This document shows, piece by piece, positions 3,642 to 64,000 of a stretch of DNA of 64,000 nt; the stretch's first letter is position 1; every line of letters starts with the position of its first letter. A program made the position numbers and the translations under genes. Source of the stretch: an uncultured Bacteroidales bacterium (GTDB lineage: Bacteria; Bacteroidota; Bacteroidia; Bacteroidales; Paludibacteraceae); the NCBI GenBank assembly GCA_903911085.1, contig CAIWCC010000099.1, positions 82,366 to 146,365 on the forward strand. Direction: 5' to 3'. The notes beneath the pieces were generated by a model. The model saw only the letters and a program-made list of their open reading frames with translations. It was not told where the DNA came from and made no database searches.

Positions 3642-3851
3642 GATTTTGAGTTTTAAATTTAATGATAGGCTTAATTTGATAGATTTAATTTTGTTACTGG
3701 CTTTTATCACTACAAATACAAATTTTATCGTAAATCAATAGTTTGAAGTGTTTTAGCCAATTTTTATCTGCGCAAAAATAAGTGATTTATAAGTAGTGAT
3801 AGTTTGAGTATTATTCAAATTGGTTTAATAAGAATTCATACATTAAATAAT

Positions 3852-4095
3852 ATTGTTGTCCGGTAAAAACAAAAGAAAAAATAGTGTCGCTCCTAAGGAG
3901 CTCTGGTAATACTTGTAACTTATTGACTACCATAATTTCGTCCCTTTGGGACTAAAGATTTAGCTGCATCGCAGCGAAATTATGGTAGAAAAAATTCAAA
4001 CCATAAAACCTAAGCCCCATTCGGGGCGACATTATAGCAAGTCTTGTTGAATAAAGACTTACAGCAATTATATAAAATGTTTACCGGACAACAAT
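3852..4095. mobile_element. MITE-like non-autonomous element, copy 1 (244 bp)
   Basis: Perfect 16-bp terminal inverted repeats ATTGTTGTCCGGTAAA (3852-3867) / TTTACCGGACAACAAT (4080-4095); no ORF inside; related copies at 32794 and 34368. Confidence 0.7.
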
Positions 4096-4140: not shown

Positions 4141-4184
4141 GAATTAACTAATAACTACAAACTTTTTCTTGAAAGCAATTTTGA

Positions 4185-5993
4185 TTAAAGAATAATTTTA
4201 GTTTTACTCTCTCCAGATTTTACAATCACAACTCCTTTTTCTTTTATTATCAGTTGATTGTTTCTTTCTTTTGCAATAGTTCCAGCTACTTTTACTCCCA
4301 TGCAATTGTAAACTTCTATTCGTTCACCTGCTTTTGCACCCGATATTTTAAGAATTCCATTCTGATTACTAATTGACATTTTTCTGTTTATGTTTGAAAG
4401 TGCATTAATTACGTTGTAAGGGGCATAAGCGCCAGTCAAATCATAGGTAATATAAGCAATATCAAAGTTGGCAACTTCCGATTGGAATGCTTTTCCATAG
4501 CTTAAATAGCTTGGGAAAGTGGCTGCATATTCTTGAAGTATCACATCGTCCAATGTCATTACTGCTACTGGTGTTCCAGTATTGCTATTAGTCGTTGTTG
4601 TAAACTGCATTATTAACGATGAACTTGTAGGTCCTGTTGTTATTGCTGGTGTTGTGTTGGTATAGTAGGTCGTTAAACTTCCTGTTGGAACGCTATATTC
4701 TGTCTTTACAGATGCAAATCCATCAACTAATTTAATAGATTGAAACAAAGGAGATGCAGCTGCTATTCTTTGAGAAGTTTTTGCACTTAACTTATAAGTT
4801 TTATTGGGTGATACAGTCACAGGTGCACTACTGTATGTTCCACTGGATTTGTTTACCCAAGCGGCTTCTTTGATTTGTAATTGCCCTCCATTGGTAGAAG
4901 ACCAAATTGCAGTACCTAATGGCCAGCCACCATTAGCCCATCCTGTTGCATCTGTTGCGAAATCTCCGTTTGTAACCAAATTTGACCCAACAGCTGCGCC
5001 AATTGTTGGAGTTGCCTCCATTTCGGATAAAACCATGTCATCTATTACATAAGTATTGCTACCATTCCAACCAATAATATCAAGTATAGCAACTGAATCA
5101 GCTACACCTGTTGTAAATGTTCTGCCATTAGCTGTCCAAGTAGCAAGTGCGGCATCCATCGAGTTGGTTGGAGCACCATATATGTTGTTAAAAGCATCTG
5201 TTGCATTGGTTCTAACAAATGCTCCTGTACCATCATAATTGCCTAATTTTAGGTCGTAACGCATATTGCCAGCTACAACTGATTTTGCTAAGTATTTTGC
5301 ATAAAAACTAAAAGAATAAGCTGTACTCGGTTTCAATCCTTTAATAGTTAATGTTGTAGCAACTGATGTAGTATTGTTGTTTTTTAACTTCACAGCACCC
5401 AATCCATTTCTGAATTCTCCGGCAGCAGTTGTTCTGCCTTGTCCTGTAAGAGCAGGTAAAAAATACCACATACTCATATCGGTCGATTCGAAACTTCCAT
5501 TGCTGTCTTTCAATAGATTGTCGCTGTAAATTGCTTGAGTAGTTGTTGTTGTCACAAAAACTCCATCGCGATAAATATGTACGTTTGTACCTTCTACTGC
5601 AAAGCGAAAAGTGTGATAAGTTGCAGCATCATTTGCATCAGCATTCAAATTGGTGATGGCAGTTTCGTTGGTATAATTCAATGCGCCATAGTTGTCAATT
5701 CCATTTGAGTTGATTGACATACGTAGGCCATTACGTCCACTGTTGCGGGTTTCCAAGAAAAAACCTTTCACGGCTGCTGATAGAATTTTTGCTTTTACTT
5801 CAACGGTATAATCACCTGTTGGTACAAATGAAGAGTTGTTGATCATTTTACGAGTTCCAATTCCATAATTTATTGTTGATGCACCAATTACAGGATTTGT
5901 GCTCAAATCTTTAGTTGTCAATACAGGATCGGCAGCCATAAGTGCAAATGAGAAAAATGGCATGATAGCCAATAGTAAAATTCTTTTTTTCAT
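4185..5993 (-). CDS. Secreted LamG-like/CenC-like protein with T9SS-like C-terminal tail
   Basis: Signal peptide; VHIYRDGVFVTT and FDIAYITYDLTGAYAP motifs; two GDFATDATGW / NGSFESTDMSMW-type modules; C-terminal IEVYNCMGVKVAG...VVIVKSGESKTKIIL. Confidence 0.75.
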   Translation of the reverse strand: MKKRILLLAIMPFFSFALMAADPVLTTKDLSTNPVIGASTINYGIGTRKMINNSSFVPTGDYTVEVKAKILSAAVKGFFLETRNSGRNGLRMSINSNGIDNYGALNYTNETAITNLNADANDAATYHTFRFAVEGTNVHIYRDGVFVTTTTTQAIYSDNLLKDSNGSFESTDMSMWYFLPALTGQGRTTAAGEFRNGLGAVKLKNNNTTSVATTLTIKGLKPSTAYSFSFYAKYLAKSVVAGNMRYDLKLGNYDGTGAFVRTNATDAFNNIYGAPTNSMDAALATWTANGRTFTTGVADSVAILDIIGWNGSNTYVIDDMVLSEMEATPTIGAAVGSNLVTNGDFATDATGWANGGWPLGTAIWSSTNGGQLQIKEAAWVNKSSGTYSSAPVTVSPNKTYKLSAKTSQRIAAASPLFQSIKLVDGFASVKTEYSVPTGSLTTYYTNTTPAITTGPTSSSLIMQFTTTTNSNTGTPVAVMTLDDVILQEYAATFPSYLSYGKAFQSEVANFDIAYITYDLTGAYAPYNVINALSNINRKMSISNQNGILKISGAKAGERIEVYNCMGVKVAGTIAKERNNQLIIKEKGVVIVKSGESKTKIIL

Positions 5994-6034: not shown

Positions 6035-8683
6035 TTATTTTTTCATTAATTTCAAAGGCGCAAATCCTTCGCATTTTAGTATATAAAAACCTGAAAGTAA
6101 TTGGTTAGTTTTTATACTTTTACCTGTAAAATTGGTTTGTAAAGCCAACCTTCCTTGAGCATCATAGAGACTCACTTTTTTACCTTCTGCTATTCCTTTG
6201 AGTTGAAATGCTTCACCAATCGGATTTGGAAAAATGCTCAACTCCGAAATTGATACATTTTCCACTGCCGAAGGTGTATTTACTGTTATGGAATATTCTT
6301 TGGTTGTAATGCGAGAAACATAGTCGCGTCCACGCACTTTTATGCGGTAATTTCCTGGTTGTGTGTATGTAATCTGGTCTTGATAAAAATTAGACATCAA
6401 TGTGTCAGCACCTTGAAACATATACCAGCGATAAAACGCATCCTTATTTTCGGTGGTTTGTTTTGCCCCCAATAAGTTTACAGTTAACGGTGCACTTCCA
6501 ATTAATGGTTCTACTTTTATATCAAAAACGCCCAAAGATGCATCTGCGCAATTGCATGTGCCTGAAGCTATTGGCTCCCAATGTGCTGCTTTATTTAATG
6601 TAATATCTGTTGAAGAAACCAACGTCAACAAAGTGCCAATGCTAATATTATTATTCAGTGGATTAAGGTATTTCCCAGACGCTGAGTTTTTTAGTGCAAA
6701 ATAATTAGTTCCAGTAATTGCAACCATTTCCCAAAGTTGATTGTTGTTGTTGGTTTCATTTTCAACTACTACAGAATCGTTTCTTACGCTCAAAGTCAGA
6801 CAGTTATTGTTTACCTTTAATTTGTAAGTATTTCCAGCAACTTTATTCATTATAAAAATTTCATTTACCGAACCACTTCCTGTCCCAACACCACCCATAA
6901 ATGCAGTATTTAATTTGCCAGCAGTTGTAGAAATTTGCATTCTTCTTCGAGAAACTCCGTCGTTGTTGCGCGAAAGGAAACTGAAACAATGATTGTCATA
7001 ATCTACAGTGGTTGTTAATTCTGATGCAGCTTGTTTTGCTTTTGAAATTTTTGTGCTGTAAATTAAAGGATTGCCTCTACTTGGTATTCCTTCAAAATCT
7101 CTGTAGTATATTCCATTTGCTGCCAATAATTTAGGCGTTTTCTCAAATGAACAATAAAACGAATCGGTTGGCGCAACTGGGTTTCCAAATGCAAAAAGTG
7201 CATATCTTTCTATCATTGGTGTTGCATTCATTTTCACGATATAATCTTTTATTCCGTTGTGATAAGTTAGTGCATTGTCCTTACTTGTTGTATTCCAGCT
7301 AGCACCATAGCAAAACTCTGTAACCCAAATTGGAATATTATATTTATCGTACAAAGGTTTACAAATGGTATTTACGTAATTGTCGCCAGTTCTTTTTTCA
7401 TAATTATGCAGGCAAATAAAATCGACCCTATAACCACGTGCCAATGCTTTATCCATAAATTCGTTTAGCAAAACCAAGTTTGTCATTGCAGGCGAACCCA
7501 ACCGCAGGCCAGTTGCCATCAATTTTGGCCAAAGCGTAAGGCATTGTTCCACAGTCATATTAGACTGCTCGGCATGATCTGGTTCGTTAAAGCCGAGTAG
7601 ATGTGTTACATCTCCTTTGGTTTTAAGTGTTTCAATGTTTGCATCAACAGGTGGCCAACTCGAACCCCATTGCATAGGAACAAATTCTTTTTCAAGAGGA
7701 GATGAAGCGCTAGGACCCCAATTGTAATACCAATCGTTTTGGAATTGAGTATAGCCTCCACCCATTCCCTTTTTTGTGCTCCAAAACCATGGTGCAACTC
7801 TTACAAACGTTACAGTATCATTTTTGCCATTAATCTTACCATTTACAATGATATCATTATCTTCGGCAATGTAAACTTTACTTGGTCCAGTTCCATCCTG
7901 GTTTTGAGCTATAACTGCCATATAACCTTTTCTTAGAAATAAGGAAGCTGCCTTATTTGTACTATTGGCACCAATAGTTGTTCCTGTACTGTAACTTACT
8001 CGGAAATACTTACTTACCCCCGTTAAATTTGCTCCTGAATAAAGATACATAGCTTTTGTAGACGACCGCTGTGGAATAACCACAGTTCCACCATAATACT
8101 GCGCAACACGTACATTGCTGCCAACAATTAATGCAATTCCATCAACAGTCATTTGTTTTTCATATTTAGCTACAACTTGCTGAGGAGTAAGTGAATGAAA
8201 ATATAACCATGCATTTTCACCCACAAAATTAATTTTTGTTTCTGAAGTAATAGCCTCATTTTCATATAAATGTAATTGCGCATTGCCGCTTAATGTAATA
8301 AGTGGAGCTGCAACTTGGCCAGTTAATACAATGGCGCTGTCAAGTGTTATATTCACAGCCGATTTAAAGCCAGTAACAGTTACATAATCTGTACGAATAG
8401 TTGCTTTTTTGAAAGTGATTGTTCCTGAACCAGCATTAATTATCCCTTTCACTTCCGTGTCGGTTCCAATGAGTGCATTTGAACCAAAGTAAATGTTTCT
8501 GTTTATTGCCACCGACGATGATATACCTGTGGCCAAAGAATTGCCAGTAGCTTCGTCTTGCCAATTTGAAGAATTAAACATGGAAATTTTATCAAAATTT
8601 CCTGTCCAACTAATTTGTTGTGCTGGCGCAAAACCAATAGCACAAGTACTGAACAAAAAAAGGAGTATAGATTTTAAATTCAT
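6035..8683 (-). CDS. GH128-like (Glyco_hydro_cc) endo-beta-glucanase candidate with ricin-like/PKD-like regions and T9SS type A sorting domain
   Basis: HLLGFNEPDHAEQSN and IPIWVTEFCYGASW candidate catalytic Glu motifs; LRLGSPAMTN; C-terminal SIFPNPIGEAFQLKG...KLMKK. Confidence 0.75.
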   Translation of the reverse strand: MNLKSILLFLFSTCAIGFAPAQQISWTGNFDKISMFNSSNWQDEATGNSLATGISSSVAINRNIYFGSNALIGTDTEVKGIINAGSGTITFKKATIRTDYVTVTGFKSAVNITLDSAIVLTGQVAAPLITLSGNAQLHLYENEAITSETKINFVGENAWLYFHSLTPQQVVAKYEKQMTVDGIALIVGSNVRVAQYYGGTVVIPQRSSTKAMYLYSGANLTGVSKYFRVSYSTGTTIGANSTNKAASLFLRKGYMAVIAQNQDGTGPSKVYIAEDNDIIVNGKINGKNDTVTFVRVAPWFWSTKKGMGGGYTQFQNDWYYNWGPSASSPLEKEFVPMQWGSSWPPVDANIETLKTKGDVTHLLGFNEPDHAEQSNMTVEQCLTLWPKLMATGLRLGSPAMTNLVLLNEFMDKALARGYRVDFICLHNYEKRTGDNYVNTICKPLYDKYNIPIWVTEFCYGASWNTTSKDNALTYHNGIKDYIVKMNATPMIERYALFAFGNPVAPTDSFYCSFEKTPKLLAANGIYYRDFEGIPSRGNPLIYSTKISKAKQAASELTTTVDYDNHCFSFLSRNNDGVSRRRMQISTTAGKLNTAFMGGVGTGSGSVNEIFIMNKVAGNTYKLKVNNNCLTLSVRNDSVVVENETNNNNQLWEMVAITGTNYFALKNSASGKYLNPLNNNISIGTLLTLVSSTDITLNKAAHWEPIASGTCNCADASLGVFDIKVEPLIGSAPLTVNLLGAKQTTENKDAFYRWYMFQGADTLMSNFYQDQITYTQPGNYRIKVRGRDYVSRITTKEYSITVNTPSAVENVSISELSIFPNPIGEAFQLKGIAEGKKVSLYDAQGRLALQTNFTGKSIKTNQLLSGFYILKCEGFAPLKLMKK

Positions 8684-32793: not shown

Positions 32794-33036
32794 AAGGATG
32801 ACTGATAAACATTTTATATAATTGCTGTAAGTCTATATACAGCAAGACTTGCTATAATGTCGCCCCGAATGGGCTTAGGTTTTGTGGTTTGAATTTTTTC
32901 TACCATAATTTCGCTGCGATGCAGCTAAATATTTAGTCACATCGGGACGAAATTATGGTAGTCAATAAGTTACAAGTTTTACCAGAGCTCCTTAGGAGCG
33001 ACACTATTTTTTCTTTTGTTTTTACCAGACAACAAT
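32794..33036. mobile_element. MITE-like element, copy 2 (about 243 bp, inverted relative to copy 1)
   Basis: Reads as the reverse complement of 3852..4095; right terminus TTTACCAGACAACAAT (33021-33036); left terminus degenerate. Confidence 0.65.
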
Positions 33037-33159
33037 AATTTTAATTATTTCAATGCTCCTAATATTTAATGGAATGTCAATTTTGATAAGTCGTTTTTCT
33101 TGAGTAGAATTTGGATTTGTAAATGACTGATTATCAAGTTTGATACTGTAGCTAATAAA

Positions 33160-55301: not shown

Positions 55302-55369
55302 GAAATACGGTTCAACCAACGCTTACGTGTGGGGTCGTACCGATAGCAGGAAGTCTGAGTATTAGCACC
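55302..55369. repeat. Family-B imperfect palindromic repeat, copy 1
   Basis: GAAATACGGTTCAACCAACGCTTACGTGTGGGGTCGTACCGATAGCAGGAAGTCTGAGTATTAGCACC, related to copies at 56201 and 60097. Confidence 0.65.
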
Positions 55370-55375
55370 AGTTTT

Positions 55376-55945
55376 TTATTTTCTTGTCAATGATATTGCC
55401 TTTAAGAAATTTATCTTTTCGTTTTCTTCCCACTTTTTTACGTTTGTAATCGAAAAGTTAGCAATGTCTCCTTTTTTCTCAGCGACAAGAAAATATGTAT
55501 TAATGTTTGCTGTTTCTTTCTGTCCGTAAATTCTATAAATGATAAAATTGTTTGTGCTATCAGTCTCTATCGATTGTCTTTTCAAACCTTGAGATTCAAC
55601 GAAATAATTAGAATCCCACTCATAAAATGATTTTATAAACTCAAAACCAGATTTCTCGCCATTTCTATTAAATTCATATTTATTGAATCTTACGAAAGAA
55701 ATTGCTAAACTTACAGAGTCTCGATTCCTGAAAAACTGTTGTTTGCTACTTGCAAGATAATTAGTCCTTTCCCATTTTCCTGGTATTGTTACTGATCCAT
55801 AAGGAAAAACAAAATAGTCGGTCGTATTCGTTTTCTCATTATACTCACATCCAACAATTGTACTCGTAGTTTTTTGTATTGCACAATTTGTCAGACTAAC
55901 TACTAAAGCTAAAAAAAGAACAATTTTAATGTGGTTTGTTTTCAT
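55376..55945 (-). CDS. Hypothetical lipoprotein
   Basis: 189-aa ORF with lipobox VVSLTNC. Confidence 0.65.
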   Translation of the reverse strand: MKTNHIKIVLFLALVVSLTNCAIQKTTSTIVGCEYNEKTNTTDYFVFPYGSVTIPGKWERTNYLASSKQQFFRNRDSVSLAISFVRFNKYEFNRNGEKSGFEFIKSFYEWDSNYFVESQGLKRQSIETDSTNNFIIYRIYGQKETANINTYFLVAEKKGDIANFSITNVKKWEENEKINFLKAISLTRK

Positions 55946-56046
55946 TGTTAATAATTGTGGTACTGATTATTATTTGATATTTGTTTTATCTTTATCAATG
56001 CTTTAATTTTTTTTACCCTTCTGAATAACGCCAGTCTGCGCAAAAA

Positions 56047-56163
56047 CTAAATTTCACCCAAAAGTTGTGAAAATTTCGTTTGGCTGACTTTCATAGTTGC
56101 AATTAAATTAAAATAATCAATGCCTTCCTGCGCCAATTCATCAAAACTTGTTGCTTTCTCCAT
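56047..56163 (-). CDS. Small ORF adjoining family-B repeat copy 2 (38 aa, MEKATSFDELAQEGIDYFNLIATMKVSQTKFSQLLGEI)
   Basis: ATG at 56163, TAG at 56047-56049; the MEKAT start is shared with the sequence beside repeat copy 3. Confidence 0.35.
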   Translation of the reverse strand: MEKATSFDELAQEGIDYFNLIATMKVSQTKFSQLLGEI

Positions 56164-56200
56164 AACTAATTTATTTTCCTCCACTTTCGTTGAATGAAAT

Positions 56201-56277
56201 GCCTGCAAGCGGGAATACGGTTCAATAGACGCTTCCTAGTGGGTCGTGCCGATAGCAGGAAGCCTGGTGTTTTGGGG
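56201..56277. repeat. Family-B imperfect palindromic repeat, copy 2
   Basis: GCCTGCAAGCGGGAATACGGTTCAATAGACGCTTCCTAGTGGGTCGTGCCGATAGCAGGAAGC...; homology with copy 3 continues to about 56155. Confidence 0.7.
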
Positions 56278-56285
56278 TCGTTTTT

Positions 56286-57509
56286 TTATTTCGTTTTTTC
56301 TGTCTTAACTAAAAGTCCGTTTGCTATAAAATTGTCCGCAGTTTTCAATTCAATTGTATAAGTTTGCTGTCCACTATTTAGTCTTTCAATTGAGGTTAGT
56401 TCTGAAAATATTTTCTCTGACGGTATGAAAACCTTGTCGCCAATTTGTAAATTTTGTATTTCAGTGGTCTGTTCATAATTAGAATTAGATTTTTGGGGAT
56501 TCAAAGAAGCCCATCTTTTATTTTCTGTCCAAAATGGGTGGTCGTCTGTTGAAGTTATTTCTCGATCTTTGAATACTAGCTTGTAAAGGTTTGAATGTAT
56601 TCTATTAATTGTTTTTGTGACTTCTGTATCTTGTAGTCCTTCTTTCAGAAAGTTATATGTTTTAATTTTGTCACCTTTTTTTATTGTCTCTATGTCTTTA
56701 ATTGAATTATCTGACATTAGAATTTTAGTTCCCGCCCCAAAGCAATGAACATCAATCCCATCAAAATAAATTTCTGTAATTGCTGTATCATCAAATTTTT
56801 CTCCTTGGTAAACCTCCAAGATTTCAAATTTCATAGTCCACCAAGGTTTAGTTGAAAGTTTTTTCCAGTCTTTCCTGTCACTATAACCAATTGGTTCAAA
56901 CGAGAATGTTTGTTCTTGTCTTGTGTCGACTAAATTTAAAATGGCAAATGGCTTGTTGTACAGATACATTTTGAGCTTTTTTACTCTAGAGTTTTCACGC
57001 CACGCTCTTTCTGATTTTACGTATCCGTTGACGATAATAATTTTCGTAATTCTTGGATTTTCAGGTGGAAAATGAAAAGTTATATTTTCTCCAATTCCAT
57101 ATCCTGGGACACCTTCAATCCAAACCGTTTTGTAATTCAAATCATCAATGTTTGAGGCTGCATATTTTACACCTTTGAAGGGTTTTAATTCTGAAGAAGC
57201 TGTTGCAGTATCTAGTCCGCCACCACAATACCAACTGCAACCAGAACCAAGGATTTCCCAATAGGTTTCATCAACTTCGTCACAATTATCATAGATTTTC
57301 TTTTCTTCTGGAGTGAGTTTTTTATAGTCATCAGATTTTGATACTTTTTTCCAGACTTTCTCACATTGTTCAATTTTTTTATTAAACTCGATCTCACCTT
57401 CGGAACTTTTGTCAATAAGTTTTCCTAAAGTTGGTTTCATCTCTTTTATAGTCTGTCCGTAAATTGTCAGGCTAAAAACAGTTAAAAGTATTGTTGCTGA
57501 TCGTCTCAT
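56286..57509 (-). CDS. Secreted NADase-type glycan-binding/discoidin-like protein with C-terminal Hint (hedgehog/intein) domain
   Basis: SGCSWYCGGG...YKTVWIEGVPGYGIGENITFHFP; Hint start VHCFGAGTKILMSDNSIKDIETIKKGDKI, TSTDDHPFW, TADNFIANGLLVKTEKTK. Confidence 0.8.
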   Translation of the reverse strand: MRRSATILLTVFSLTIYGQTIKEMKPTLGKLIDKSSEGEIEFNKKIEQCEKVWKKVSKSDDYKKLTPEEKKIYDNCDEVDETYWEILGSGCSWYCGGGLDTATASSELKPFKGVKYAASNIDDLNYKTVWIEGVPGYGIGENITFHFPPENPRITKIIIVNGYVKSERAWRENSRVKKLKMYLYNKPFAILNLVDTRQEQTFSFEPIGYSDRKDWKKLSTKPWWTMKFEILEVYQGEKFDDTAITEIYFDGIDVHCFGAGTKILMSDNSIKDIETIKKGDKIKTYNFLKEGLQDTEVTKTINRIHSNLYKLVFKDREITSTDDHPFWTENKRWASLNPQKSNSNYEQTTEIQNLQIGDKVFIPSEKIFSELTSIERLNSGQQTYTIELKTADNFIANGLLVKTEKTK

Positions 57510-57525
57510 ATTCTTTTTTTTAATG

Positions 57526-57634
57526 CCCCATAACGACCAATGCTATGGGCATTTGGCGGATTGTGAAGCTAATACGGGCGCAAAACTCCCGCTAAATGCG
57601 CGTCCGCCAGCCAATGCGCATAGACGTGTGGCTG
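57526..57634. repeat. Family-A attC-like imperfect palindrome, copy 1
   Basis: CCCCATAACGACC start; arms CTATGGGCATTTGGCGGA (57543-57560) and TCCGCCAGCCAATGCGCATAG (57603-57623). Confidence 0.65.
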
Positions 57635-57882
57635 GAAGTTAAGTCATTCAGAATTCGGTTTTATTATTTTCGATTTTAAACCTTTATACCTTATTCATTT
57701 TTCCACGTTTATGTATCTTGTTTTGTTGTGCTTAATTATAGCCTTTATTATTGTTTTGTTTTTCTTGTCTTCAAAATCTTAAGACTAAGCTAATTTGCCT
57801 ATTTTCTTTTCTGAGATTAGACAGATTCTTTCATTAGTAGTATATTTTCTTTCCCTCGTTCACTATGAGGTAAAGAGTTATA

Positions 57883-59832
57883 TTAATTCAAAAAATTATT
57901 ATTGACTGTCTGTAATGCCCATTCATATAATAAGCCGGCTCCACTGTTAGCTTTTGTAAGAACATAGATTTGTTTTCCAGTTGAATCTGTAAAAACAAAA
58001 TTACCTTCAGCATTATATAATTTATTATTGGACATAAAGCTTTCCAATGTAAATTTGCCCAAGTAATTCAGATAGCTGTAGTTAAACACGTATAAATAAG
58101 GATCACCTGTAGTAGTTGTCCAATTGCTTGAGTTACTAGTCAGAACAAAAAACTGATCTGCCGATTTTGAATGGAAAAGCGATTGAATCTGATTTGTAAC
58201 ATCTACATTACCATTGTAGTACATATCTAGTGTTTTCAATTCACTCGATCGGAGTACAGTTTTACCACGGGTAAATATTCTATCACCATCTTCCGAAAAC
58301 CATAGGTTTCCATTCATTGGATAATCACCATGATAAGGTGAATCATAAAGCATAGATGCAACTCCATTCTGGATGTCATATTTTTCAATATCACTTGGTG
58401 AAGAGCCATTATCAGCTCCATACATATATTTTTCCGAAGGATGTAATCGTCCTAATGTACCTGCATAAATCATCCAGTCCGATGAGTTTGATTCTAATCC
58501 TGTAGTGAGATTTACGCCATGGATAGCACACCACTGGTCCCTTATAGGGAATACATATCCCCAGCCACCTGAAGTAAGAACCACATCCAGTGCATCACAG
58601 CTAATGCTGCATTCCTTTTCAAGAGTGCTTGAGGCTATATCAATATAACTTACCATTCCGTTATGACCTACCAATGCTTTTGTTCCGTTGGCATTTACGG
58701 ATACACAACTTGGTGTTTTATTCAACCTTACAGTTTGTTTTGTCTTTGTTTCTGGGTCAAGTATAATCAGTGCATTGGTTGGAGATGCAGTTACCATGTA
58801 TATTTTGTTTGTCTTACGGCAAAATTCAGCATCCACAACATTGCAGTTCAGCATGTATTTTGTTTCCACAAAATGATCGATAGTTACCAACAAAGAGTCT
58901 TTGAAGTTAGCATCATTGTTGAAATTAATGACGGCTGTATTTTTGCCATTTGGAATTGATGTCCTATTGGTTGAGATTTTTAGAAGCACAGAATCACCCT
59001 GATTAACTAATCCTTGCGCAGGAACAATATCAAAGTATTGTTTCTGACTTGAAGCTGACCATGTCAGTGGAGAATTGCCAGTATTCCTGAGATATACATA
59101 TTTCACATTATCCGTATAATCATATTTCAATTCTTTTGCTGATAAATTATAGGTCGAATTTAATGGAACTTCCATACTTACATTTACAGAATCATAGGAA
59201 TTTTCAGCATTTGTTATCAAACTAATCATATGATTATAAATGTTCTTATTCATATTTGCGCGATTACATTGCAATGTGATTGTTACTTTTTGTTTCTTAA
59301 ACAAATTACCATGTGTTGGACTTACACTCAACCAATTGTTTGGCTTGTTGATAGACCACGAAAGAATTCCGGTACCAGAATTTTCAATTGTAAATGTTTT
59401 TGTATTATCAGTTGTACCAAAATCAATACTCTTCGAACTGTTGTAAATTTTAGGATGACCACTAACAGACATGTAGACATAGACATCTTTAGTGCCCGCT
59501 AAATCAGAAATAATGGAAATTTTTCCTGAATATACTCCTTCCAAATTGTCTTTTAATGGTACTAAACGAATGGGATTAATTCCGTTTGCTATTTTAGCTT
59601 TCAACAAGGTAGAATCAATAAATAACCATGATGGATATTGGGTAATTTGATACTGAATACCGGTTTGAGGCTGAACTGATATATAGATGTCTTTAAAACT
59701 ATCAGCATCGGCAATGTAAAGCGTATCTGGTGATACAAATAGTTTTAATGTGCTGATGTCTAGATCATTTTTTTCGCAACCACCAATCAATAATAATACC
59801 GGGAGGATAACTGAAATCAATAGTTTCTTCAT
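57883..59832 (-). CDS. Lipoprotein with BACON/Ig-like repeats and YVTN-type beta-propeller
   Basis: Lipobox LLIGGC; SWSINKPNNWLSVSPTHGN and TWSASSQKQYFDIVPAQGLV repeats; NKTPSCVSVNANGTKALVGHNG propeller-like. Confidence 0.65.
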   Translation of the reverse strand: MKKLLISVILPVLLLIGGCEKNDLDISTLKLFVSPDTLYIADADSFKDIYISVQPQTGIQYQITQYPSWLFIDSTLLKAKIANGINPIRLVPLKDNLEGVYSGKISIISDLAGTKDVYVYMSVSGHPKIYNSSKSIDFGTTDNTKTFTIENSGTGILSWSINKPNNWLSVSPTHGNLFKKQKVTITLQCNRANMNKNIYNHMISLITNAENSYDSVNVSMEVPLNSTYNLSAKELKYDYTDNVKYVYLRNTGNSPLTWSASSQKQYFDIVPAQGLVNQGDSVLLKISTNRTSIPNGKNTAVINFNNDANFKDSLLVTIDHFVETKYMLNCNVVDAEFCRKTNKIYMVTASPTNALIILDPETKTKQTVRLNKTPSCVSVNANGTKALVGHNGMVSYIDIASSTLEKECSISCDALDVVLTSGGWGYVFPIRDQWCAIHGVNLTTGLESNSSDWMIYAGTLGRLHPSEKYMYGADNGSSPSDIEKYDIQNGVASMLYDSPYHGDYPMNGNLWFSEDGDRIFTRGKTVLRSSELKTLDMYYNGNVDVTNQIQSLFHSKSADQFFVLTSNSSNWTTTTGDPYLYVFNYSYLNYLGKFTLESFMSNNKLYNAEGNFVFTDSTGKQIYVLTKANSGAGLLYEWALQTVNNNFLN

Positions 59833-60018
59833 AATTTCTTCTAATTCTAATAGTATATTTAATAAATAATTTGTTCAATTGATCTTCTCCTCGGCTCCTA
59901 AGGAGTATGGAGTGTTTCATTAGTTGTTATCTTGCTATATTTCAACTTTTTACGCTAAGCGTCTTCTTGCGTTTAGATGCACAACATTATTCGTTCTCTC
60001 TTTTGTCTTTTCCCTCCT

Positions 60019-60053
60019 GCGACTATGGTTGCTGAGCTTGTCGAAGCAGTCGC
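60019..60053. repeat. REP-like hairpin
   Basis: GCGACT atggtt GCTGAGCTTGTCGAAGC AGTCGC. Confidence 0.55.
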
Positions 60054-60096
60054 TTTCTCCATACCTAATTTTTTCTTCCACGTTCGTTGAATGAAG

Positions 60097-60175
60097 TTCC
60101 TGCAAACGGGAATACGGTTCAACCGACGCTTCCTTGCTGGGTCGTGCCGACCGCAGGAAGCATGAGTATTAGGGG
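60097..60175. repeat. Family-B imperfect palindromic repeat, copy 3
   Basis: TTCCTGCAAACGGGAATACGGTTCAACCGACGCTTCCTTGCTGGGTCGTGCCGACCGCAGGAAGCATGAGTATTAGGGG; terminal TTCCTGC/GCAGGAA inverted repeat. Confidence 0.7.
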
Positions 60176-60234
60176 TTTGTTGTTTGTTTAGGTTATCTGT
60201 GTTTCTTCAATTTAGTCGTGTCATAATTTGGAGC

Positions 60235-61302
60235 TCAGAACTTGTTTTTCTTCATATCCTTTTTGTAATTCTTAATCACTTTTCCAAACTCTTTATCTTT
60301 TTTTCGTCTCTCTTCAATTGTTGATTCAAAATGTGCTTTCTCACGTTCCATTTTTAGGTAGTTTTCATAGGAACTTTTTTCAATTTCTCCTTTTTCAACA
60401 GCTTCTAGAACTGAACAGCCAATCTCGTTGGTGTGAGTGCAATCTTTGAATTTGCATTTTCGAGAAAGACTGATTATTCTGTCGAAAGTTGTTTCTAATC
60501 CGCCCGTCGTATCAGCAATACCCACTTCTCTCATTCCAGGATTGTCGATAAGAATCCCACCACTTTCAAGAACAATTAATTCTCTGTGACTTGTAATGTG
60601 TCTTCCTCTATTTGAGCTCTGACTAATTGTATCTGTTTTCATTAAAGTTCTTCCAGAAAGGTTGTTCAGCAATGTAGATTTTCCAACTCCCGATGAACCA
60701 AGCATACAATATGTCTTACCCTTTTCGATAATCTTTTTAAGTGCTTCGTATCCATCCTTCGTTTCATTACTTATTGAAAGAACTGGAATGTCTTTAATTC
60801 GTTGCTTAATACTTTCAGTTATTTCAGCAATCTTTTGTTCATTTATTAAATCAGTTTTCGTCAGTACAATTATTGGGTTTACTTTAGACGAATAACAAAT
60901 GGTCAGGTATCTTTCAAGTCGGTTGATATTAAAGTCCCTGTCAACAGCTTGAATCAGAAATGCGTAATTAATATTTGTTGCTATTATTTGTATCTCTCCA
61001 AATTGACCAACTGCCTGTCTTGTTATGATTGAAAGTCTCGGTAATGTTTTATGGATTACAGAAAAATCAGAATCATAGGTTGTTAACGCAACCCAGTCGC
61101 CAACCGCAGGGAAATCTACACGTCTTTGTGCTGAAAAGCGTAAATTTCCAGTTATTTCGGCTTCAAATTCACCGTTTTCTGTTCTTACAATATATCTTTC
61201 TTTGTGCTCCGCAATAATTCTTCCAATCTCAAAGTCTGTAAGGTTATTCTCTATTCTTAATTTTTGGAATTTGTCATTATATCCAAAATCTTCTAGTTTC
61301 AT
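60235..61302 (-). CDS. rsgA: Circularly permuted GTPase RsgA (ribosome small-subunit-dependent GTPase A) family
   Basis: VLTKTDLI (G4) before GSSGVGKSTLLNNL (G1); DNPGMREVG; CKFKDCTHTNEIGCSV. Confidence 0.9.
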   Translation of the reverse strand: MKLEDFGYNDKFQKLRIENNLTDFEIGRIIAEHKERYIVRTENGEFEAEITGNLRFSAQRRVDFPAVGDWVALTTYDSDFSVIHKTLPRLSIITRQAVGQFGEIQIIATNINYAFLIQAVDRDFNINRLERYLTICYSSKVNPIIVLTKTDLINEQKIAEITESIKQRIKDIPVLSISNETKDGYEALKKIIEKGKTYCMLGSSGVGKSTLLNNLSGRTLMKTDTISQSSNRGRHITSHRELIVLESGGILIDNPGMREVGIADTTGGLETTFDRIISLSRKCKFKDCTHTNEIGCSVLEAVEKGEIEKSSYENYLKMEREKAHFESTIEERRKKDKEFGKVIKNYKKDMKKNKF

Positions 61303-61319
61303 CTCGGTAATTATTGTGT

Positions 61320-61931
61320 TTAATGTTTAAGCTGTGTATCTGTTACTAGTTTTTCTTTGTAAGGAAATCGCTTTTCGAATTCAATTAATTCATTGGGCTG
61401 TGTTATAAAAGCATTGTCCTCAAAAAATTTGCCCTTTATATCGTCAAATCCATTAGTTTGCAACTCCAACGCCATAAATGGTTCAAAATTAAGCCCATCT
61501 TTAGTAGTTATACTATATTCCTGTGCATTTCTAAATCCCAAACGGTGATAATAATCTGGATTTCCAAAAAGAATCATACCCTTGTAATCTAATTCTTTTG
61601 CCACTCTAATTGATTCATTTAAAAGCTCTGAACCGATTCCTTTTTTTTGAAAATCCGCAAATACTGATAAAGGTCCAACACATAAAATTTCATGTTCATT
61701 ATTTTGCAAATCAATAATTATTGCTTTGGTAGATATTATATGTCCTATAATCTCATTCTCAAAGACAGCAACTAAGTCAAGTTTACTAATATAACTTTTA
61801 CTGTTTCTAATATTATGCAAAACTAAATGTTCATCGCACCCAGGTTTATATAAGTTCCAAAATGATTCTCTTGTAAGGTTTTCTGTTTGGAAAAAATCAT
61901 TTTCTGTTGTTCTTTCGATAAGTATTTTCAT
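61320..61931 (-). CDS. GNAT family N-acetyltransferase (YhbS-like)
   Basis: LCVGPLSVFADFQKKGIGSELLNESIRVAKELDYKGMILFGNPDYYHRLGFRNA. Confidence 0.9.
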   Translation of the reverse strand: MKILIERTTENDFFQTENLTRESFWNLYKPGCDEHLVLHNIRNSKSYISKLDLVAVFENEIIGHIISTKAIIIDLQNNEHEILCVGPLSVFADFQKKGIGSELLNESIRVAKELDYKGMILFGNPDYYHRLGFRNAQEYSITTKDGLNFEPFMALELQTNGFDDIKGKFFEDNAFITQPNELIEFEKRFPYKEKLVTDTQLKH

Positions 61932-61966
61932 AATTTTACAATGTCTTTTTTTATTTTTTACACTGA

Positions 61967-62120
61967 CCCCTAACGACAGAGACTATGTACATCCTGCGGT
62001 TTGCGTGCACTTCACTGTCTACAAACGACAAAGTGAATTGCAAATCAGCGAAGCTAGTGCAGGCGCAAAACCTGCTAAATGCACGTCATCCAGCAGGTGA
62101 CAATAGGCGCGTATTAGGGG
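61967..62120. repeat. Family-A attC-like imperfect palindrome, copy 2 (154 bp)
   Basis: CCCCTAACGAC...GCGCGTATTAGGGG; inverted-repeat arms; shares 34 identical bp with copy 3. Confidence 0.7.
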
Positions 62121-62134
62121 TTGTGGCTTGGCAA

Positions 62135-63235
62135 TTAGTTGATTTTCAATTCATAATTTGTACTTCGTCCGCCTTGTTCAGATTTCGCAAGAATTCTCTT
62201 CTCAATTAAATCCTGAATGTCACGCAACGCTGTGTCCTGTGAACATTTTCCGATTTTTGCCCATTTTGTCGTGTTCAAAACTCCTTCAAAGTCGTCCATT
62301 AGCATATTTAGTATTTTTCGCTGTCTGTCATTTATTGATACTTTAGAGTTCTGAAGCCAAAATTCGTGCTTGTAAATAACTTTTTCAAGTAATTTTTCTG
62401 AGTTTTCAATCGAGTGTAATAAGCTATTCAAAAACCATTGAAGCCAGTTAGTTATGTCCAAACTCCCTTTTTGTGTTTTCTCCAAAATGTCATAATATGA
62501 ATTTCGTTCTTTTCGTATTTGTGTCGACATACTGTAAAATCGATATGATTGTTCGTCTGAACGTGCTAATAACATATCACTTAATGCCCTTGAAATTCTT
62601 CCATTTCCGTCTTCAAATGGGTGAAGCGTTACAAACCACAAGTGTGCAATTGCAGCTTTTAAAACAGGGTCAACATTCTGTTCCAGATTAAACCAGTCGA
62701 AGAAAATTCGCATTTCATTTTCTATTTGATTTGCTGGTGGAGCCTGATAATGAACTTTCTCTTTTCCTAAAGCTCCTGAAACAACTTGCATTGGTCCGGT
62801 TGAATCGTCACGCCAGTTTCCGGTTATTATTTTGTACATTCCGCTTTGTCCTGCTGGAAAAAGTGAAGCATGCCAACTAAAAAGTCGTTCCTTGGTTAGT
62901 TCTTTGTCGTATTTTTTTGTTGCATCAAGCATCAAATCAACAATTCCGTCTACGTTTCGTTCTGAATAAACTAATCCTGAAATGTCCAATCCTAAACGTC
63001 TTGCAATTGACGATCTTACTTGTTCTCTGTCAAGAAATTCACCCTCAATTTCAGTCGATTTTAGAATTTCAATCGTCAATATCTCGAGATTCGCTTCGTT
63101 CTGAAGTTCAAAACCCAAAGCGCCCATTTTTCCAACGAGTTTTCCTTGTCGATTTCTCACATAAGCAAGTAATGGTAATAGTTTCTCGCTATTCCATTCA
63201 AAGTTTGGCCAGTTTTGATTGTTGTATAAATACAT
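62135..63235 (-). CDS. Fic family protein (DUF4172-type N-terminus) with C-terminal winged-helix-like region
   Basis: HPFEDGNGRISRALSDMLLAR Fic motif; N-terminal NWPNFEWNSEKLLPLL; C-terminal RQRKILNMLMDDFEGVLNTTKWAKIGKCSQDTALRDIQDLIEKRIL. Track start is 63307; ATG at 63235 (MYLYNNQNWPNF) is more likely. Confidence 0.88.
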   Translation of the reverse strand: MYLYNNQNWPNFEWNSEKLLPLLAYVRNRQGKLVGKMGALGFELQNEANLEILTIEILKSTEIEGEFLDREQVRSSIARRLGLDISGLVYSERNVDGIVDLMLDATKKYDKELTKERLFSWHASLFPAGQSGMYKIITGNWRDDSTGPMQVVSGALGKEKVHYQAPPANQIENEMRIFFDWFNLEQNVDPVLKAAIAHLWFVTLHPFEDGNGRISRALSDMLLARSDEQSYRFYSMSTQIRKERNSYYDILEKTQKGSLDITNWLQWFLNSLLHSIENSEKLLEKVIYKHEFWLQNSKVSINDRQRKILNMLMDDFEGVLNTTKWAKIGKCSQDTALRDIQDLIEKRILAKSEQGGRSTNYELKIN

Positions 63236-63247
63236 ATTTTTTCTTAC

Positions 63248-63353
63248 TCCGCTAAATTTGCGGTAAAAATACAATTTATTCTCCGCATGACAAAATAAAA
63301 TCCGCACAAAATGCGGTGATAATACTATTTATTCTCCGCATTTTTTATTTTTT
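63248..63353 (-). promoter_or_regulatory. Two 53-bp tandem operator-like units upstream of fic
   Basis: TGCGGTAAAAATACAATTTATTCTCCGCA (63259-63287) and TGCGGTGATAATACTATTTATTCTCCGCA (63312-63340), 26/29 identical, 53 bp apart. Confidence 0.65.
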
Positions 63354-63361
63354 GCCCTTGC

Positions 63362-63515
63362 CCCCTAACGACCGAGTCTATGGGCATTTGGCGGCTTGCG
63401 AGAGCATTCGCTGTCGTGAAACGACAAAGTGAATTGCAAATCAGCGAAGCTAATGCGGGAGCAAAACCGCCGGAATGCACGTCAGCCAGCCAATGCCAAT
63501 AGGCGCGTGTTGAAC
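63362..63515. repeat. Family-A attC-like imperfect palindrome, copy 3 (154 bp)
   Basis: CCCCTAACGACC...GGCGCGTGTTGAAC; AAACGACAAAGTGAATTGCAAATCAGCGAAGCTA shared exactly with copy 2. Confidence 0.7.
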
Positions 63516-64000
63516 TAAACCTTCGGTAATCAACCTACCATTCACCTAATTTTTCTTATCAGCATCCAAAAGTAGATAATTATTCTGATATTCACATTAC
63601 AAATCATTTTAAATGTGAATATATGCAATCAAAATCATAAAAAAAAGGCTATGTTTCTTTAGTAGAGCAAGCCCACACTGCAAAGTGGGACATTTGCACA
63701 CCGTGAGTACTTGGAGCGCACGTGCACCACCACCAGCCGATGCTGTTCACCGTGCAGCCATAAATGCTGCTGCACAAAAAATAAGTCACTGATAATCAAT
63801 ACTCGGCTTCCTGAAACGAAGCTCGACAGCCATTGTATTGCCTAAACATAACTAAATAGGACAGAAATGCCCTATAAAGCGACAAAACCTGAACTTTTCA
63901 TGTTTCGAAAACACCCAATCTAGCGTTATTTGATAGTAAAAAACTGGTTTTTAAGCTTTGTAGGTTAGCCTCAACCAACCCAAGCTCAACCAATAATACA

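Follow-up and report, generated by a model that had tools for sequence, protein, structure and literature searches.

Putative integron-type cassettes and a patchless integrase in the chromosome of an uncultured Bacteroidales bacterium

Are the genes at one end of a contig of an uncultured Bacteroidales bacterium, separated from each other by imperfect palindromes, the cassettes of an integron, and which recombinase could then serve them? The contig is CAIWCC010000099.1 (C99) of assembly GCA_903911085.1 (G000). The window, that is the whole stretch of 64 kb analysed here, covers its positions 82366-146365, window position 64000 being the terminus of the contig. A preliminary description had read the array as integron-cassette-like. 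We conclude that the genes at the end of the window are very probably cassettes of a chromosomal system of the integron type, composed of an integrase, an attI site and attC-like hairpins. We call this integrase patchless, as it lacks the insertion specific to IntI, the canonical integron integrase. The conclusion is drawn from what the sequences display: the architecture, the cassette boundaries, the attI/attC rule, the conserved hairpin, the association with the integrase and the precise joins of tet(X2).

Three palindromes of one family (family A) lie on the minus strand, which is also the gene strand, at 57532-57630, 61972-62115 and 63367-63511. They are the only matches at E <= 0.01 in the window to a covariance model built from 44 elements (hairpins detected de novo and elements of the own genome), and an Rfam search of the window gave zero matches. 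With the second copy as query, BLAST returned 49 matches in the source genome, and an iterated profile search detected about 49 attC-like elements of about 124 nt. Rather than lying scattered irrespective of genes, the copies form gene arrays on contigs C37, C70, C133, C177 and C185 among others, with a single direction per array and a spacing of about 0.4-4 kb, often about 1 kb. The elements are bounded by variable bases followed by TAACAC and by GTCGTTA followed by variable bases. Compensatory changes were found for 13 of the 14 hairpin pairs (A4, 44 elements), and thus the three palindromes first noticed in the window are real. As expected for attC, they are imperfect palindromes that keep the ends AAC...GTT, the fold being conserved rather than the sequence. 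One extra base, possibly extrahelical, is found in the attC family of Paludibacter, the label that same-genus genomes bear in collections (where the entries G034 and L105 are one identical 84,338-bp contig); it is not present in every other family. Of the two strands, the bottom one gave the more stable structure in the examples that were folded. The C70 array also contains a distinct attC family of about 132 nt (L041:1329-1460, 4157-4289 and 7316-7447), mixed with family A, and the two have the common ends GGCAAGCCGCTAACACACGTC.

When an integron cassette is circular, one attC arm is formed from the bases directly following G^TT and those directly preceding AAC, which must therefore be complementary within a cassette. 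Over 32 intervals of the own genome, the match of the cassette 5' end with the start of its own attC was 4.59/6, against 2.09 with the preceding attC and 2.39 +/- 0.19 in a shuffled control that reached a maximum of 3.13 in 10,000 (n = 32). In other genera (n = 22) the match was 4.23/5, versus 2.00 +/- 0.23 after shuffling. Failures were few and mostly concerned misplaced cut calls and eroded or skipped sites. This cassette rule is direct evidence that each interval was once cut out or put in as one unit.

The statement that no integrase is visible holds within the window, but the genome does encode an integrase, next to an attI, on another contig (C206). It was the best match in this genome to the integron-integrase profile (C206:65834-67564, equivalent to L039:5835-7565), and two attC sites at the end of C206 follow 2 kb downstream. 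The protein consists of core-binding and catalytic domains (PF00589, 1.4e-42) preceded by an N-terminal extension of about 300 residues, and it has the tyrosine-recombinase motif R..H.R..H..Y, also present in 45 relatives. The IntI-specific insertion of 42 residues (the patch, with the I2 helix) is absent, the distance from box I to HxLRH being 93-99 residues in the 45 relatives versus 135 in 30/30 IntI. The score is 209.5 bits for TIGR02249 (canonical IntI), below the cut-off of 265, and 218 bits for NF040815 (Xer), with a cut-off of 220. The search for intI that had been recommended did reveal an integrase, albeit a patchless one that stays below the canonical cut-off. A profile comparison showed the N-terminal extension to be made of three repeats homologous to one another (E 1e-8 to 1e-13), each predicted to fold as two-strand/helix/two-strand/helix. 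For this domain, Pfam gave just a weak match with HARP (E 0.21), and Foldseek weak matches (E 0.01 and above) with XPB among them. The DNA-recognition domains of HARP and XPB are structure-specific DNA binders, and the weak likeness to them is a lead. The three-repeat form is not universal, since many further loci encode shorter integrases with a profile match only from the third repeat or the core-binding domain onward. One complete genome (G262; L256, L257, L258) encodes three shorter patchless integrases, each followed by same-strand attC matches. A survey of tyrosine recombinases has remarked that the IntI insertion is incompletely conserved in an integron-like subgroup (PMC8138268); patchless relatives have thus already been seen as sequences.

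The N-terminal region was searched against GTDB genomes, giving 143 relatives, and 80 loci were kept. These loci are nearly all labelled Bacteroidota, plus two Chlorobiaceae bins, with hosts including Spirosoma, Arundinibacter, Pedobacter, Solitalea, Algoriphagus, Lacihabitans, Thermoflexibacter and Breznakibacter. Their common layout is the integrase, then attI, then an attC array on the same strand. A de novo hairpin scan of the 80 loci found 47 candidate hairpins on the same strand downstream, 1 on the same strand upstream and 5 on the opposite strand. The covariance model gave 84 matches in 48 loci, all 84 on the integrase strand and 83 of them downstream. In 18 further loci, whose regions are mostly downstream so that strand alone is informative, 70/71 matches were on the integrase strand, the exception being the reverse of the same palindrome. 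If the first cassette follows the rule too, the complement of its attC start should stand after a G near the integrase. This predicted 9-mer (G plus the 8-mer) was present exactly, and once, between the integrase and the first attC in 25/26 loci, compared with 1/640 trials with 9-mers taken from other loci. The attI is usually located 100-250 nt past the integrase stop, beside an inverted repeat, e.g. TATGCGAACATCATGTTCGCATA or TATACGCCATAAAGTGGAATTTATGGCGTATA. In six loci, Cytophagales and Saprospiraceae labels included, a gene of the SSB family is found about 35-60 bp 3' of the integrase (L121:11675, L125:11673, L127:11685, L129:11673, L140:4642 and L147:11711). This neighbour and the stabler bottom strand fit recombination of a single-strand hairpin, although they are no proof of it.

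Similar sites surround resistance genes on plasmids. A protein search of plasmids turned up, next to tet(X3) on pJAT2044 (NZ_CP104735.1, L250:2967-5030), a truncated integrase that shares 68% identity with the patchless integrase over 238 aa. By its sequence, the 'xerD' of the xerD-tet(X3) unit is a truncated copy of a patchless integrase, and between it and tet(X3) lies GATATATACGCCATTTGGCGTATAGCCACTTG^TTATGTGCC, an attI-like site of the present type. On Empedobacter brevis pSE1-3-20kb (L254) and Sphingobacterium faecium pWB8 (L255), the tet(X2) cassette starts with TTATGTGCC at G^TT behind differing attC ends. Its own attC, of 125 nt, starts with GGCACATAAC, the perfect complement of TTATGTGCC, and the cassettes that follow differ. 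Taken together, tet(X2) and tet(X3) are joined at G^TT to three different upstream sequences, and the tet(X2) contexts display single-cassette joins rather than the insertion of a whole element. The cassette rule is also obeyed by blaOXA-347 and lnu(H) on the same plasmids, and an attC of this type directly follows arr. Besides tet(X2), blaOXA-347, lnu(H) and arr, the arrays of these Bacteroidota resistance plasmids, pSE1-3-20kb and pWB8, hold catB, in antisense orientation. In independent laboratory work on Riemerella anatipestifer, aph(3')-IVb with a 27-nt 5' flank and a 140-nt attC-like 3' flank is reported to integrate without homology, and the uptake of lnu(H) and blaRATA to be likewise homology-independent, by a mechanism not identified there (PMC13148043).

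These data suggest the following mechanism. A cassette would consist of a gene or genes and an attC-like hairpin of about 124 nt on the same strand, behind the integrase and attI. The patchless enzyme, which we infer to be the catalyst, would cut attI and the folded attC strand at G^TT, this single strand being the likely substrate. Excised cassettes would be circular and could be inserted again, at attI or at another attC, and the start of a cassette would be complementary to the start of its own attC because one attC arm is made up in the circle. The three N-terminal repeats, in the many hosts that have them, may recognise the hairpin.

Could the array instead be an ordinary integron, whose attC sites depend on a canonical IntI, either acting in trans or absent from the assembled sequence? 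Its attC architecture and cassette rule are indeed those of integrons, and in a genome that is 97.9% complete a gene may be missing. However, canonical IntI above the cut-off was found in 0/22 genomes with the patchless integrase, and the top match of the IntI search in the own genome was the patchless enzyme, below the cut-off. In a sample of the phylum, 85/298 genomes have canonical IntI, almost wholly outside this class; among those listed, just one is noted as same-class. The patchless enzyme moreover adjoins attI and an array in dozens of loci, and we regard a hidden IntI as very improbable. Among 150 genomes of the family, attC was found in 24/26 with an integrase (the extended form plus shorter recombinases) versus 19/124 without, p = 5e-14. 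Even less credible is that the palindromes are REP-like (repetitive extragenic palindromic) or transposon-end repeats that are merely intergenic, with a recombinase as coincidental neighbour. Being palindromic, intergenic and multi-copy they resemble such repeats, but neither the one-sided strand nor the attI 9-mers would be expected, and the identity with REP or transposon ends was ruled out by the complementarity of the cassette rule together with the G^TT junctions of tet(X2). Ancestry is a different matter, compatible with the mechanism proposed above: the patchless integrase could be an IntI branch that has lost the patch. Among solved structures the integron integrase 2a3v is closest to it, by sequence and also by fold (AlphaFold model of a relative), and the C-terminal SPLD motif is common to the two kinds of integrase. 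In the tree, on the other hand, the patchless group forms its own clade apart from all IntI sampled (IntI 100/99), on an unresolved backbone from which neither loss nor independent origin follows. We give patch loss a little less than an even chance.

Several points weigh against a patchless integron. By the accepted view integrons cannot function without the IntI patch, so a patchless enzyme needs other means. The integrase is not on the contig of the window array. The covariance model was trained partly on downstream elements, while the search itself covered both strands and all positions. The 19/124 family genomes with attC in which no integrase was detected may have lost it, may have had it missed or may use another enzyme. 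Finally, for tet(X3) in Acinetobacter, the R'' GGCTACTAAC mismatches its own 5' end TTATGTGCC.

The features at the end of the window, all on the minus strand, can be listed as follows.

63367-63511, minus strand: attC-like copy 3, 145 nt, end GTCG^TTAGGGGG; R1 covariance model 48.1 bits, E 1.2e-9
61974-63368, minus strand: Fic cassette, 1395 bp from crossover to crossover, start TTAGGGGGC; own attC is copy 2 at its end
62135-63307, minus strand: Fic/DOC protein with DUF4172 (PF13776 8.6e-32, PF02661 1.1e-18)
61972-62115, minus strand: attC-like copy 2, 144 nt, end GTCG^TTAGGGGTC; R1 33.5 bits, E 5.9e-6
60123-61973, minus strand: GNAT and RsgA-like cassette, start TTAGGGGTCAG read from sequence, 3' end putative
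61320-61931, minus strand: GNAT acetyltransferase (PF13508/PF00583 1.4e-6)
60235-61302, minus strand: RsgA-like GTPase (PF03193 9.5e-49)
60111-60172, minus strand: short attC-like element of family B, eroded (repeat families D14/D7/D11); next 5' end G^TTGAACC
57883-59832, minus strand: BACON-domain protein (PF19190 3.4e-17), within the interval 57534-60122
57532-57630, minus strand: attC-like copy 1, 99 nt, shortened, with eroded R'', end GTCG^TTATGGGG; R1 27.4 bits, E 2.1e-4
56286-57509, minus strand: protein with NADase-translocation F5/8C and Hint-like domains (PF25302 1.1e-54, PF08517 7.9e-11), first gene past copy 1
56228-56290, minus strand: family-B element, eroded (repeats D7/D11)
55304-55365, minus strand: family-B element, eroded (repeat D14)

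At the family-A sites the palindrome is placed 3' of each gene unit and the next unit begins directly from G^TT. The Fic gene and its upstream region exactly fill the interval between copies 2 and 3, as had been proposed. The 5' bases of the own attC of this cassette, CCCCTAA, are the reverse complement of the cassette start, with a cassette-rule score of 4/6. The longest open reading frame of the Fic gene has a GTG start at 63307; translation probably begins further downstream, at the ATG of MYLYNNQNW. Family B comprises shorter palindromes (about 62 nt), eroded, of which 2/3 copies begin with CCCCTAATAC and which end near GGTTGAACCG. It looks like an eroded attC type, and its elements probably terminate the GNAT-RsgA and Hint cassettes, the former presumably in the element with R'' CCCCTAATAC. 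The interval 57534-60122 may or may not be a single cassette, and the element at 55304-55365 is the probable end of the array. Of the preliminary gene inventory, Fic, GNAT and RsgA-like proteins are recovered by Pfam and the BACON-domain gene in 57.5-60.1 kb is to be added; the 'Hint protein' does contain a Hint-like domain, along with the NADase-translocation domain. The proposed CALIN-like cluster (cluster of attC sites lacking integron-integrases) describes a contig fragment: the window does have at least two attC without nearby integrase, but C99 stops at its last position and the integrase and attI are elsewhere in the genome. Elsewhere in the window, a long inverted repeat occurs in two copies 29 kb apart (3831-4090 and 32799-33057; 187 nt, 92% complementary), with palindromic ends CTACCATAATTTCG.

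We read the system as a variant of the integron, most of whose defining features it shares; we place it outside the IntI family because its integrase fails the IntI-defining feature. Complete integrons are described as almost absent from Bacteroidetes (PMC9024848). Integron surveys identify integrases via the IntI patch and would therefore miss a patchless system. In the literature, with preprints and most subscription journals uncovered, we found no patchless integron or Bacteroidota cassette system described, save the attC-like remark in PMC13148043, and its novelty is thus provisional. If the patchless enzyme does recombine attC, the patch is not the sole solution to hairpin recombination. 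For the gene capture without homology in Riemerella, so far unexplained, the system also supplies a concrete candidate, and it offers an origin for the xerD-tet(X3) unit with tigecycline resistance. A bolder proposal, which we consider evenly balanced, is that a second kind of integron, separate from the first, arose in Bacteroidota, with a patchless Xer-like integrase and folded attC hairpins read by another module (HARP/XPB-like N-terminal repeats in many hosts). It would be the phylum's platform for gene capture and the source of the tet(X), OXA-347 and lnu(H) resistance cassettes.

How does this system compare with those already named? Like IntI integrons (class 1 and the Vibrio superintegron, with VchIntIA 2a3v), it combines an integrase, attI and same-strand cassettes, and it has hairpin attC with R and L arms and an unpaired spacer, a crossover at G^TT and a cassette 5' end complementary to the start of its own attC. 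In contrast to them, the Bacteroidota integrase has no 42-residue patch, belongs to a separate clade and often carries three N-terminal repeats, the attI has an inverted repeat beside the crossover, and integrase and cassettes are co-oriented. In the Riemerella capture (PMC13148043), a gene with a short 5' flank and an attC-like 3' stem-loop likewise moves without homology, and an lnu(H) cassette with the present attC type is found on pSE1-3-20kb; a recombinase, an attI and a wider family, none of them named in that paper, are proposed here. The xerD-tet(X3) unit of Acinetobacter plasmids (pJAT2044; PMC7494873) resembles it in having a relative of the integrase, an attI-like site and then the start of a tet(X) cassette. 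It differs in that the integrase is truncated beside ISVsa3, and the passages of PMC7494873 consulted do not describe it as an integron end. XerA, XerC and XerD have the same catalytic fold and no patch, whereas the patchless integrase is tied to attI and cassette arrays and possesses an extra N-terminal domain.

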